Of a stretch of 55,790 nt of DNA, positions 5,243 to 10,837 are shown piece by piece. A program made the translations under genes and the position numbers. Position 1 is the first letter of the stretch. Each line of letters begins with the position of its first letter. Source of the DNA: a bacterium (GTDB taxonomy: Bacteria > UBP4 > UBA4092 > JAOAEQ01); assembly GCA_026416715.1 (NCBI GenBank), contig JAOAEQ010000009.1, positions 49,262 through 105,051 on the forward strand, in the 5' to 3' direction. The notes under the pieces were generated by a model. The model was not told the DNA's origin and made no database searches. It was given only the letters and a program-made list of their open reading frames with translations.

Positions 5243-5328
5243 TTAAATTCAATAGAGGTATAACGTTAGAAAATAAAAAAGCTTTGGTACTTGAATCGTT
5301 CTTGCTAATCTAATGAGGAATAATAATT

Positions 5329-7200
5329 ATGATAGATGCAGAAAATAATTTCTTATTTCCGAAGGAAACGATTGCTGAATTAACCGTTCCGAAACTCATG
5401 TTTCGCCGGATTCAGAAACGCGACGGAACATTGGTTGATTTCGATAAGAATAAGATAACCACCGCAATTTTTAAAGCGGCACAATCAGTTGGCGGGAAAG
5501 ATTATGCATTAGCGGATTCGTTAGCCGACCGGGTTATTCTCTATTTATCGCGGACGTATCCAGATGGGTTGTTGAACGTTGAACAGGTGCAGGATGCTAT
5601 CGAAAAAGTTTTGATTGAACATGGACATGCGCAAACCGCTAAAGCGTTTATTCTCTATCGCGCGGCTCGGCAACGACATCGACAAATTCAATTGACACAA
5701 TCGACGTCTTCGGCGCAAGCCTCGCTTGTTTCGCAGGAACTCCAAGTCAGAACTTCTGATGAAGAAATTATCGCTTGGAACCGACAACGGATTATTGATG
5801 CGCTAGTTCGGGAAACACAACTTGATATTCAGGTCGCAACCAAAATCAGTAAGGAAGTTGAATTGCAAATAATCGAATCGAATCTGCGCATTATCACCGC
5901 AGGATTGATTCGCGAGTTGGTTAACGCCAAATTACTGGAATACGGGTTAGAAAAAGAGAGAAGGATGCATGCACGATTAGGATTACCGCTCTATGATTTC
6001 GAACGATTATTATTATCGCAACCAATTCCAGCAGATAATACCTTATCCCAGACGGTTCTTAGGGCTATCGAACGACAGTATGCGCTGGCAAAGGTATTTT
6101 CAACCGAAGTGGTTGATGCGCATGCGCAAGGGATTCTTTATCTGCATAACCTCGATGAGATTGTTAGAGGATATGAACTTCGCTTCGTATTACCGGAAAC
6201 TGATTTACAATTTAATCGATTATGTACTCTTAACCTAGCTGCACAGTTCCGCGTTCAAGTACCGCTGGCCAAGTTTGCTGAATGTCTTCCACAATTGACC
6301 CAACCGCTTTTTTCGTCCTGTAATTGGGAAGTTTTAATTACTGAACAAGATATGTGTGCAGATGGTAGCCAAGCGCTGCTAGATGCCATTGAATATTGGA
6401 TACTTGAACGAAAGGCAGAGTTTTCCCAAGAGCAAACCTCGACATGTCCGGTGCCTAAACTTTATTTCCGATTATTGAACGATTCCCAATCAATTTCTCC
6501 CGAATGGGTCTTACATAAAGTAACGTTAAATTTACCAAACATCGCGTATCAAGCGGTAAAAGCGGAAAGTGAACCATATTTATTCCAGCTCATTCAGACC
6601 CGCTTACATCTTATTATCCAAGCTCATCTGCAAAAACAGGTTTTCTTGAATCGAGTTTATGGCGCTCGGTTGAGAGAGCTACTCACATCAATTGCCGAAA
6701 CTGTGCCCCAGGTAACCTACGCAATCGGACTTCTCGGATTGAATGAACTTGTTGAATCATTCTATGGTGCGCAATTACATCAATCGGAACCAGCACGCAC
6801 ACTAGCAGGACAAATTCTTGCTTATCTCTCTGCTCAATGTCAGCAATTGAGTCAAACGTATAATCTTGTATTACGACTTGAACCAACCGAAATTCCGGAA
6901 ATTGCATATCGGTTTGCCAAGCTTGATTTGGAGAGAGAACCGATATTAGCTACTCCAGTTGTTAAGCGGAAACCAACCAACGGCGGGGTATATTATACGG
7001 TAGGAGCGCAGTTTACGGAATTTACCTCGCATGAATTATTTTTCCGTATCATTGCTGAATCATCATTCCATCGCTATTTAAACCAACAGGCCGCAGTAAC
7101 TATCCCGGTATCAATTCTGGCAGAATATAACGGATTGAGTTCGTTATTACGGAAAGTGTTACAAGAAACCCCGTGTCGGCTAGTCCGGATTACAAAGTAA
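5329..7200 (+). CDS. ATP-cone protein resembling a degenerate anaerobic ribonucleotide reductase (NrdD-like)
   Basis: 623 residues. Residues about 24-118 form an ATP-cone (RRIQKRDGTLVDFDKNKI...AKAFILYRAAR), the nucleotide-sensing domain of ribonucleotide reductases and NrdR. A second cone-like domain spans about 138-228, ending in 'HARLGLPLYDFERLL'. The rest resembles class III reductase NrdD: 'AHAQGILYLHNLDEIV' (264-279), 'VTLNLPNIAYQA' (398-409), 'IGLLGLNELVESFYG' (466-480), 'LEPTEIPEIAYRFAKLD' (517-533), 'GGVYYTV' (552-558). The part between 280 and 397 is much shorter than in NrdD and I see no counterpart of the catalytic-cysteine strands. The C-terminus stops before the zinc CxxC pairs and the glycyl-radical motif. 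It is therefore probably not a reductase; a nucleotide-responsive regulatory or scaffold role is possible. A radical SAM gene, not NrdG-like, follows. Confidence 0.7.
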   Translation: MIDAENNFLFPKETIAELTVPKLMFRRIQKRDGTLVDFDKNKITTAIFKAAQSVGGKDYALADSLADRVILYLSRTYPDGLLNVEQVQDAIEKVLIEHGHAQTAKAFILYRAARQRHRQIQLTQSTSSAQASLVSQELQVRTSDEEIIAWNRQRIIDALVRETQLDIQVATKISKEVELQIIESNLRIITAGLIRELVNAKLLEYGLEKERRMHARLGLPLYDFERLLLSQPIPADNTLSQTVLRAIERQYALAKVFSTEVVDAHAQGILYLHNLDEIVRGYELRFVLPETDLQFNRLCTLNLAAQFRVQVPLAKFAECLPQLTQPLFSSCNWEVLITEQDMCADGSQALLDAIEYWILERKAEFSQEQTSTCPVPKLYFRLLNDSQSISPEWVLHKVTLNLPNIAYQAVKAESEPYLFQLIQTRLHLIIQAHLQKQVFLNRVYGARLRELLTSIAETVPQVTYAIGLLGLNELVESFYGAQLHQSEPARTLAGQILAYLSAQCQQLSQTYNLVLRLEPTEIPEIAYRFAKLDLEREPILATPVVKRKPTNGGVYYTVGAQFTEFTSHELFFRIIAESSFHRYLNQQAAVTIPVSILAEYNGLSSLLRKVLQETPCRLVRITK

Positions 7201-7232: not shown

Positions 7233-8699
7233 ATGTCCCGATTACTAACGACTACTCCATTTCAACTCTTACAAGCAGAACGTGGGACGATTCGAAAATC
7301 GCATCGTGGTAAACTAAAACTTGCGTTGATTTATCCGAACACATATGCGATTGGAATGTCAAACTTAGCCGTACATACGCTGTATCGTTTATTCAACGCG
7401 CATCCGAACATCGTTTGCGAAAGGTTTTTTTATATCCCAGGGTATACTGGAATCCCGCGATCGCTCGAGTCGGGAACTGCGTTAACCGCTTTCGATACAA
7501 TTGCTTGTTCTTTATCATTTGAGTTAGATGAGTTGAATTTAGTTGCGCTTCTTCGGCAAGCGAATATTCCGATTTTCCGCATAGAACGAAGCAAACGGTA
7601 TCCATATCTTATCGCTGGGGGAATTGCGGTTTCCGCAAATCCGGAACCAATTGCGAATATCGTTGATGCGGTGGTTCTTGGCGAAGCGGAAGAAATTATT
7701 GAGCCAATGTTAGAGATTCTGATTGCAACTATGAACGATAAACGGAAACGGAACGACCGGCTTGAACGGTTATCGGGAATCTATTTACCGGATCGTAATA
7801 CATCTGCGGAACATATTACGCGATTACATCTTACCGAATTAGATAAATTTCCGAGCGTTTCACAGATTATTACTCCTTATACCGAATTTAAGAACATGGT
7901 TCTGATTGAACTCGGCCGCGGATGTCCATATTCCTGTCGGTTCTGTTTAGCCGGTACATTCTATAAACCGGTTCGATATCGAAGTTTACACCACATCTAT
8001 GAACAAATTGAGTTTGCTCGCAGATTTTCTGGAAGCGGCGCTATTCCGCGAATCGGTATTGTTGCCACAGCCATTGCTGATTATCCGCAACTTGATCAGT
8101 TTTGCGCAGAGATGCTTAAACGGAAGATTCCGGTTTCATTTGCTTCATTACGTGCGGATAAAGCGCCGGATCTCCTCTTTAGATTGTTAAAACAAAGTGG
8201 GCAGAAAACGATTGCGTTCGCACCAGAAGCTGGAACCGAAACGTTGCGAACCTCAATCGGTAAACCGCTCACGGACAATGAATTAATGGAACAAGTCTAT
8301 CGAGCGGTATCGAACGGATTGTTAAATATCAAGTTGTATTTTATGCTCGGATTACCGCAAGAAACTGAGGCGGATATTCAAGCGCTTATAGCGCTGGTTA
8401 GACGGCTTCGCAATATTTTGATTTCTGCAAGTAAACCTTTTGGTCGCGCGGGTAAGGTAATTGTAGCGATATCCCCGTTTGTGCCAAAAAAAGGAACCGC
8501 GTTTGAACACGAGCGATTTGATGATATTGCAGAACTTAAACGGAAAAATCGTTTACTCCGAAGCGCGCTCCAGAAAGAAAATAATCTTCAACTCCAATTA
8601 GTTAATCCTCATACTGCCTGGCTAGAAACTCTCTTGTCGCTAGGTACTCGAGAGACGTTACCCGCACTGGTTACCGATACGGATAAGATATCCTCCTAG
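7233..8699 (+). CDS. Radical SAM protein, TIGR03960-like
   Basis: 488 residues from ATG 7233; an earlier in-frame start at 7173 would overlap the previous gene by 28 bp and add only low-complexity residues. The N-terminus (28-130) resembles the cobalamin-binding-like domain of this family (LKLALIYPNTYAIGMSNLAVH). The 4Fe-4S motif CPYSCRFC (Cys231, 235, 238) follows GRG, and 'FAPEAGTETLRTSIGKPL' and 'IKLYFMLGLPQETEADI' are typical core radical SAM strands. Related proteins are often longer, with a C-terminal DUF2344-type extension, which is absent here. The substrate is unknown. It sits 32 bp after the reductase-like gene and its stop overlaps the stop of the convergent STAND gene. Confidence 0.85.
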   Translation: MSRLLTTTPFQLLQAERGTIRKSHRGKLKLALIYPNTYAIGMSNLAVHTLYRLFNAHPNIVCERFFYIPGYTGIPRSLESGTALTAFDTIACSLSFELDELNLVALLRQANIPIFRIERSKRYPYLIAGGIAVSANPEPIANIVDAVVLGEAEEIIEPMLEILIATMNDKRKRNDRLERLSGIYLPDRNTSAEHITRLHLTELDKFPSVSQIITPYTEFKNMVLIELGRGCPYSCRFCLAGTFYKPVRYRSLHHIYEQIEFARRFSGSGAIPRIGIVATAIADYPQLDQFCAEMLKRKIPVSFASLRADKAPDLLFRLLKQSGQKTIAFAPEAGTETLRTSIGKPLTDNELMEQVYRAVSNGLLNIKLYFMLGLPQETEADIQALIALVRRLRNILISASKPFGRAGKVIVAISPFVPKKGTAFEHERFDDIAELKRKNRLLRSALQKENNLQLQLVNPHTAWLETLLSLGTRETLPALVTDTDKISS

Positions 8700-10837
8700 G
8701 TTGTTACAGATGATTTCTGGAGTCGTTCGAGTTCCATTTCTGCAGCGGTTAGTGCACCGGTCACAAGTTGATGCTCAGTTGGATAAGCAGCTTTAGTATA
8801 AATCTTTAACGCATTTTTGAAAAAGATAATCGCTTGCTGGAGGTTACGAACCTTATCCCCTGGCAGTTTAGAAAATCCGATTCCCATAAGATATTGTGCA
8901 TTGGCATATTCACTTGAATGTTCGGTAGGTACATATACCGTCAGCGCTTCCCGGAAACAATCAAGCGCTTGTCCGATATTCTCTTTAGTTTCTCCGGTTG
9001 GAAGCTCGAGATACGCTTTGCCCAGAAGGACTTGAAGGTGCACATGGTCGAATGGGAACGATTGCCGTGTTGCAACTAATAACGCAGCAAAATAGTTATC
9101 CATAGCATTTTTAAGATTGGTCGCTTTATCACCTAAGTTTAATTCGTGGTAAGCTTTCCCTAATAGCATCGAAGCGTAGGCAAACGGTTCCGCATGTACT
9201 CCCTGAACGAAAATGGATAGAGCTTCGTTAAGTTCATCTATTGCGGATGCTAAGTTGTCATCTCGGGTAGGATTGGTGAGATGTAAGTGGATGGCACCAA
9301 GCTGGAGTTGGACTGCCGCATAATAGAACGGTTCTTGTTCGCGCGTGAAATAGCGTAACGCATGTTTACAACACGATAACGCTACCCGGGCGTTATCCTC
9401 GCGATTCCCTTGAGTTAGTTCGGTATATAATATCGCGAGAAGATATTGGGTCAGTGAATGTTCATAGGGAAAAACTGTTTCTGGAAAGAATCTTAACGCA
9501 GTTTCGCCATATTTAATTGCAGTTGCTAATTCCGTATGAAATTTTTTCTTTTGCTGAAGTCCAAGCGCTAAATGAACTAAAGCAAGGGTCAGATTCACCT
9601 GCGGATGGTCCCGATGATATTTATAGACGAACTCAAGAATTTGTTTTGCTAGTGGATAATGGTGTCGTAAATAAGCGGCTTCGGCCAGTTCGCAGAGACT
9701 GCCCAGCAGGAGCGGGCGAATATGTTTATCCGCGTTTGCTGAGTGAATCAGAAACTGGGCTAACGAGTCTAGTTCGTGTGCAAATGGTACTGGTTCAAAT
9801 TTTAATCTCGTATCATGGCAGAAAATCCGATTCTGCCATAAATTGAAATATTGACGGGAGAGATAATCTATCGCCAATTCTATCTGATGGGGTTTAAGTC
9901 CTTTTCCTTCTTCACAATATCGAATACACCATTGAATAACTAAATCTTTAACCGCAGGAATGTTATAAAACCGGAATAAACTTAATACCCGAAAAATCGC
10001 GCGTTCTTCATTTTTCATTCGTAAATGGATCCAATGCCAGAACATATCTTTATTTTGAGAGAACTCGGTGTATTCCGAATCAGTTATCTTGGTGCCTCGC
10101 GTTTTTCGAGCGAAAAAATGCACGTAGCGTTCAAGGGTTCCATCCCCGTCTCGGACAAAATTCGCCCGCATTTTTTCATCTAACGGTGGAATATCGGTTG
10201 CATCGCAGACCGCGTCAATAAACAATCCGGTTTGTTCCGGTGTAAAATTCGGGAGCCGGATTTCTTTAAAGGTATCTTTGAACCAAGATGAAGTCGCGCG
10301 TTCAATAATCGGGTATAGTTCTTCATCTCGTGCGGTTATAATGACGGTTACCGGTTGTTGCGATTGTTTTTCAAACCAGGATATGGTTGCACGCAATCGA
10401 TGGAGTAACCCTGGTGGTTTATACCGCCATTCGGATAACGATTCTGGCGCAGATACACTCGGTAAATGTGGTAAATCATCTATGAGAAGAACAATATTTG
10501 CGGTAGGCAACCCTTCTGGAAATTCGATAGGCGTCGAAAGACAACAACGTAAAACAAACACAGTAACCGGGTGAATTTGATGCAGGTTCCGAATAAGTTC
10601 GATCGCTTCCCGAGTTTTTCCGGAACACGGTCGACCAGTGATTGCTACTTTTTTCCCCATCAATTCTTGTACATTAGCAGTATTAAATGGGAGCGAGCGC
10701 GGAACATATCGCGGTATAACTTTTAGCGGGCAAGCAAGACGAAGAGATAATTCTTCTACCGGCACTAAATCAAAAGGAAATACCGCATCACCAGTCCAAA
10801 ACTCAGTTTCCTTTTCTTTTTTACTGCCAAATAGCAC
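8696..10837 (-). CDS. STAND-type P-loop NTPase with C-terminal TPR repeats
   Basis: 713 residues, GTG start. A P-loop GRPCSGKT (68-75), a Walker B strand VLLIDD (about 116-121) and a sensor-like IITARDEE indicate an AAA/STAND NTPase; a winged-helix-like region follows (about 270-370). From about 375 on there are TPR-like helical repeats of roughly 45-55 residues (A..YLLG.AY.EL..GD...NL..AI..F..AL), best seen at 540-700. STAND proteins are usually ATP-dependent switches in signalling, regulation or defence; the TPR part would be the ligand sensor. The gene is isolated, convergent with the radical SAM gene (stop codons overlap) and divergent from nagA. A 26-bp palindrome lies 25 bp upstream of its start. 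No effector domain is recognisable at the N-terminus (1-55). Confidence 0.75.
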   Translation of the reverse strand: MLFGSKKEKETEFWTGDAVFPFDLVPVEELSLRLACPLKVIPRYVPRSLPFNTANVQELMGKKVAITGRPCSGKTREAIELIRNLHQIHPVTVFVLRCCLSTPIEFPEGLPTANIVLLIDDLPHLPSVSAPESLSEWRYKPPGLLHRLRATISWFEKQSQQPVTVIITARDEELYPIIERATSSWFKDTFKEIRLPNFTPEQTGLFIDAVCDATDIPPLDEKMRANFVRDGDGTLERYVHFFARKTRGTKITDSEYTEFSQNKDMFWHWIHLRMKNEERAIFRVLSLFRFYNIPAVKDLVIQWCIRYCEEGKGLKPHQIELAIDYLSRQYFNLWQNRIFCHDTRLKFEPVPFAHELDSLAQFLIHSANADKHIRPLLLGSLCELAEAAYLRHHYPLAKQILEFVYKYHRDHPQVNLTLALVHLALGLQQKKKFHTELATAIKYGETALRFFPETVFPYEHSLTQYLLAILYTELTQGNREDNARVALSCCKHALRYFTREQEPFYYAAVQLQLGAIHLHLTNPTRDDNLASAIDELNEALSIFVQGVHAEPFAYASMLLGKAYHELNLGDKATNLKNAMDNYFAALLVATRQSFPFDHVHLQVLLGKAYLELPTGETKENIGQALDCFREALTVYVPTEHSSEYANAQYLMGIGFSKLPGDKVRNLQQAIIFFKNALKIYTKAAYPTEHQLVTGALTAAEMELERLQKSSVTT

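Follow-up and report, generated by a model that had tools for sequence, protein, structure and literature searches.

The window considered here is a stretch of 55,790 nucleotides of contig JAOAEQ010000009.1 from a bacterium of the UBP4 lineage (GCA_026416715.1), and at 5329-7200 (+) it carries an ORF of 623 aa with an ATG start. The encoded protein (hereafter the window protein) is related to NrdD, the class III anaerobic ribonucleotide reductase (RNR), and the gene is laid out as follows.

5315..5319, + strand: GAGGA, likely ribosome-binding site 9 nt before the ATG (read from the sequence)
5329..7200, + strand: gene for an NrdD-like pseudoenzyme of 623 aa (ORF, Pfam/NCBIfam matches, hhalign profile)
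5407..5673, + strand: ATP-cone 1, residues 27-115 (Pfam; alignment to 8p23)
5743..5949, + strand: second, degenerate ATP-cone, approximately residues 139-207 (Pfam match at the cut-off; columns of the family alignment)
6016..6195, + strand: N-terminal NrdD remnant, residues ~230-289 (alignments)
6196..6510, + strand: shortened central segment, ~105 aa (alignments)
6511..7083, + strand: C-terminal NrdD remnant with NLPNIAYQA, GLLGLNE and LEPTEIPEIAYRFAKLD (Pfam NRDD profile 279-468)
7198..7200, + strand: stop codon, the chain stopping before the zinc/glycyl-radical domain (sequence, alignments)

The ATP-cone family PF03477 matches two stretches of the protein (E 1.9e-27, above the curated cut-off; best 27-115), and Pfam NRDD matches it with E 3e-26, the best stretch, 395-585, corresponding to profile positions 279-468 of 562. 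When a four-member family profile was compared with canonical NrdD by hhalign, the match reached 100% (E 2.2e-87, 587 columns), and a homologous NrdD core is thus present. The original prediction, made from the sequence alone, had described two tandem ATP-cones followed by a shortened NrdD core and had proposed ATP-cone and NrdD profiles as a check; the profiles, hhalign and the alignments all bear this architecture out. The top matches of a PDB sequence search are likewise NrdDs (Prevotella copri, 8p23; S. thermophilus, 9d3x). NrdD structures are also the best fold matches, from weak AlphaFold2 models (mean pLDDT 52 and 57) that are reliable enough to use only for cone 1 and portions of the core.

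The catalytic features of NrdD are missing from this core. In the window protein, the beta-A Cys column holds Glu (RGYE; canonical RPYC), HxHD in the N-terminal remnant reads YLHN, and alignment to canonical NrdDs shows a deletion of the CCRL finger loop, with ~250 canonical residues that include this loop giving way to residues ~285-395. The NxN flap over the substrate (PMC11226230) is lost too, which the original prediction had missed, and the nearest relatives have all of these losses as well. In a joint alignment of 44 family members (42 proteins of the phylum of genome G140 and two UBP4 proteins) with 24 canonical NrdDs, the beta-A Cys, the finger-loop Cys-Arg (MCCR/MGCR, as in PMC9669993) and the NxN flap were each found in 0/44 family members and 24/24 canonical proteins. 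The four zinc cysteines of the radical domain are missing in 44/44. The glycyl-radical motif R-V/I-x-G-Y is present in 0/44, in the aligned column of 20/24 canonical NrdDs and in 16/16 intact genes of the same genomes. Finger-loop and C-terminal positions are mostly gaps in the joint alignment, so those counts are alignment-dependent; a direct motif search agrees with them on both losses. The predicted absence of catalytic cysteines, zinc cysteines and glycyl-radical motif therefore holds for the window protein and for the other family members aligned. The possibility that a frameshift or a split gene hides the radical domain was checked downstream and elsewhere in the genome and rejected, because the next gene begins 32 nt downstream and the whole-genome PF13597 profile search gave no other NRDD match. 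Since the defining features that were tested are absent, the window protein is an NrdD homologue and not a class III reductase.

Cone 1 has been preserved differently. In the alignment to 8p23, its residues K30, R31, R114 and R118, the last just outside the Pfam cone boundary, correspond to Lys7, Arg8, Arg87 and Arg91 of P. copri NrdD (PcNrdD), which are basic residues near the triphosphates (PMC11226230). Among the 44 members they are conserved in 100% (K30), 95% (R31), 100% (R114) and 91% (R118). The second cone is without the KRDG signature, and Trp150 is invariant in the family. With catalytic residues gone in 44/44 and the triphosphate residues of the cone kept under purifying selection, the sequences lend good support to the original idea of a putative nucleotide-sensing pseudoenzyme.

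Near-full-length relatives occur in at least 49 of 68 genomes of G140's phylum (table count), and together with the proteins of the window's genome and of the MAG UBP4_UBA6127 they make up the family. Its members are NrdD paralogues that are catalytically dead yet conserved. No dead family members were recognised in viral contigs, which held just ordinary cone proteins.

A PF13597 survey of 386 genomes revealed further NrdD-like proteins without a radical domain. In the tree, the window protein groups with those of G001, G140 and G277 (96/99), those of G099 and G237 fall among canonical NrdDs of another branch, that of G357 lies with NrdDs that have no second cone, and that of G085 stands apart. 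A single clade for seven truncated proteins was rejected (AU p 0.012), a result weakened by long branches. On these placements and this rejection, NrdD appears to have been inactivated at least three separate times. The G357 protein (L099:7189-8739, +) is a short dead NrdD-like protein of 516 aa with one cone, and its gene lies, by eye, directly after a dCTP deaminase-like gene. The G085 protein (L102:5676-7676, -) is full-length and keeps the zinc cysteines, but it has PFYK in place of CCRL and KAAMSF where the radical glycine motif would stand; no PF02867 reductase was found in this genome (83% complete).

Unusual gene structures were also seen among other NrdDs. G011 (L100:6041-8120, -) and G159 (L101:6481-8563, -) have a canonical-looking NrdD in two ORFs, the second with the zinc part, adjoining an NrdG-like gene, and G298, of the same family as these two, has a stop within the NrdD frame; either a split class III reductase or frameshifting is conceivable in this group. 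The canonical NrdD of G039 (L033:5059-9000, -) contains a large intein-like insert exactly at the catalytic CCRL finger loop.

One PF02867 reductase is encoded in the genome of the window, an assembly of 2.96 Mb in 64 contigs with an estimated completeness of 100%. It is a cone-less enzyme that has C-terminal cysteines and the NPCGE finger loop of class II, and it is the reductase on which this genome, lacking a functional class III enzyme, depends. ATP-cones in this genome are confined to NrdR and the window protein. A strong NrdR-box pair lies upstream of the class II gene (0/300 shuffles reach it), and none was found ahead of the window gene. The only classmate genome compared, UBP4_UBA6127, carries, besides an orthologue, both a class II enzyme and an intact nrdD together with nrdG. 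Among relatives, the class II NrdJ of G001 is also cone-less, as are those of G099 and G237, whereas in G277 the dead protein occurs alongside a class I reductase with two cones of its own, which means that the window protein is not simply a substitute cone. In G140 (99% complete) no PF02867 reductase was found, and the dead NrdD is the only reductase-like catalytic gene found there.

The gene that recurs beside the family is nrdR. In 9/42 phylum members, from five families, it immediately precedes the dead gene in the same orientation, 4-260 nt away; in the other 33/42 and in both UBP4 members the dead gene does not adjoin it. NrdR-box pairs precede nrdR in 11/11 loci that have it, a score reached by 0/200 shuffles in ten loci and by 3% in one. 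In the independent dead lineage of G099 and G237 the order is dead nrdD, nrdR, nrdJ, and the NrdR boxes lie between the first two genes. The activase gene nrdG adjoins 0/46 dead loci, in contrast to 15/16 intact nrdD genes of the same genomes, where it lies directly downstream. These 16 phylum genomes with an additional, intact nrdD have all motifs in it and nrdR beside 0/16, a few contigs ending near the gene. In G426 and G448 nrdR adjoins the dead gene and not the intact nrdD-nrdG pair; G450 resembles them, but its contig begins 40 nt before the intact nrdD. Several canonical nrdD genes in other genomes have nrdR beside them as well, so the linkage of the dead genes may be partly inherited. 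No other recurrent neighbour of the family was convincing.

The gene downstream (7233-8699, +) encodes a radical SAM protein that is the genome's second TIGR03960-like copy. It is diverged and lacks the TIGR03936 part; the ordinary copy, a fused one, is on contig 13. A functional link between the two genes had been suggested in the original prediction, together with a survey for their co-occurrence. The loci do not support this link: no such gene adjoins the orthologue in the classmate, and a TIGR03960-like gene stands beside the dead gene at 0/42 phylum loci, the recurrent neighbour being nrdR instead. A row of nrdR, nrdD, nrdG and a TIGR03960-like gene in G016 (L037:290-5157, +) was considered, and nothing was drawn from it because its radical SAM copy is no closer to the window's than ordinary TIGR03960 copies are, all of them lying at 32-35%. 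A gene for a 713-aa P-loop-like protein with weak TPR matches (8696-10837, -) converges on the radical SAM gene of the window.

The favoured explanation is that the window protein is a dead NrdD paralogue which probably acts as a dATP/ATP sensor on dNTP supply. A sensor for the supply of DNA building blocks is suggested because the same dead protein has been preserved in at least two bacterial lineages, and both binding and signalling are predictions. Cone 1 would bind ATP or dATP, binding would change the oligomeric state or the contacts of the protein, and the dATP/ATP ratio would be relayed to the NrdR repressor or to the working reductase, which is class II in the window's genome. Against this reading, the window gene neither adjoins nrdR nor has NrdR boxes. 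Selection acts on the core too, so its role may be something other than to carry the sensor. It is judged an even matter whether inactivated class III reductases were co-opted repeatedly to serve as free-standing dATP/ATP sensors controlling the reductase or repressor in use; if so, an ex-enzyme would survive the loss of its catalytic pathway by regulating dNTP supply.

Two alternatives would deny the protein such a role. A pseudogene in decay, or an artefact of assembly, is highly improbable. Decay would fit the divergence of the core in the two UBP4 proteins, which share 53-55% identity in the cone half and 33-38% overall, but the frames are open in dozens of genomes and dN/dS is 0.10-0.22 in congeneric pairs with dS < 1 (cones 0.04-0.19, core 0.12-0.25; pairs with saturated dS were given no weight, and none involved a close relative of the window's own species). 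Cones and core are both constrained, which argues against decay, and independent assemblies with identical losses argue against an artefact. The same selection on the core, and a truncation that falls exactly before the radical domain, would suit a protein that is still an enzyme, using a borrowed, separate glycyl-radical domain or other chemistry; a detachable stand-alone radical domain of this kind exists for pyruvate formate-lyase. A supplied radical domain would be of no help, however, because the beta-A Cys, the finger-loop Cys and the NxN flap are gone in 44/44 as well, and the window's genome has no match to NrdG2 (TIGR02495) above the cut-off, so that a surviving enzyme is considered unlikely.

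Two further alternatives concern the partner through which the protein would act. It could be an activity switch acting in trans, in which the cone binds dATP and shuts the cone-less class II NrdJ in a mixed complex. Cones outside the catalytic subunit do regulate reductases, as in L. blandensis NrdB (PMC5794259), and the cone-less NrdJ of the window's genome, G001, G099 and G237 is consistent with such a switch, as is the restriction of cones in the window's genome to NrdR and the window protein. Two genomes do not fit: G277 has a class I enzyme already equipped with two cones, and in G140 no PF02867 reductase was found. Cone-less class II enzymes are, moreover, common without such a partner, and the switch is regarded as a minority possibility. 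Alternatively, cone-to-cone contacts with NrdR might adjust NrdR oligomers and hence the transcription of reductase genes. NrdR acts by nucleotide-driven oligomerisation (PMC9110341), and the upstream nrdR of the nine phylum members, its place beside the second dead lineage, the NrdR boxes ahead of it and the two or three genomes in which it adjoins the dead gene and not the intact nrdD all speak for this partner. Most phylum members and both UBP4 members lack the arrangement, and adjacency can stem from co-regulation or ancestry instead of contact; an NrdR partnership is likewise regarded as a minority possibility. The broader reading as a dATP/ATP sensor is preferred to either.

Regulation of RNR is textbook allostery, and ATP-cones are known from every reductase class; catalytic subunits, NrdB and NrdR have all been described with them (PMC11226230, PMC5794259, PMC9110341). 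A conserved catalytic subunit without catalysis would be a further way of placing the sensor. Some genes annotated as anaerobic reductases would then be misannotated, and caution would be needed in inferring class III metabolism from them. The sensor idea is directly testable by standard RNR biochemistry. No description of a dead NrdD family was found in the open-access papers searched. A survey of 1,375 class III sequences distinguishes finger loops with one cysteine from those with two, and a loop without any is not mentioned in the section consulted (PMC9669993).

Compared with known systems, the window protein is homologous over cones and core to class III NrdD (8p23, 9d3x; TIGR02487, PF13597), from which it differs in having a shorter barrel, no beta-A/finger-loop Cys, NxN flap, zinc cysteines or radical glycine, and no nrdG nearby. 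NrdR shares the ATP-cone, and its gene adjoins part of the family, but NrdR has a Zn-ribbon DNA-binding domain with two CxxC, whereas the window protein has no CxxC anywhere and an NrdD core instead. In L. blandensis NrdB (5olk) the cone is also placed outside the working catalytic subunit and the cone sequences match, although that cone is fused to the radical-generating subunit and the window cone to a dead catalytic subunit. Pseudomonas aeruginosa NrdA (5im3) is, unlike the window protein, an active class I enzyme, but its cone is matched by cone 1 in sequence and fold, and both proteins have more than one N-terminal cone.
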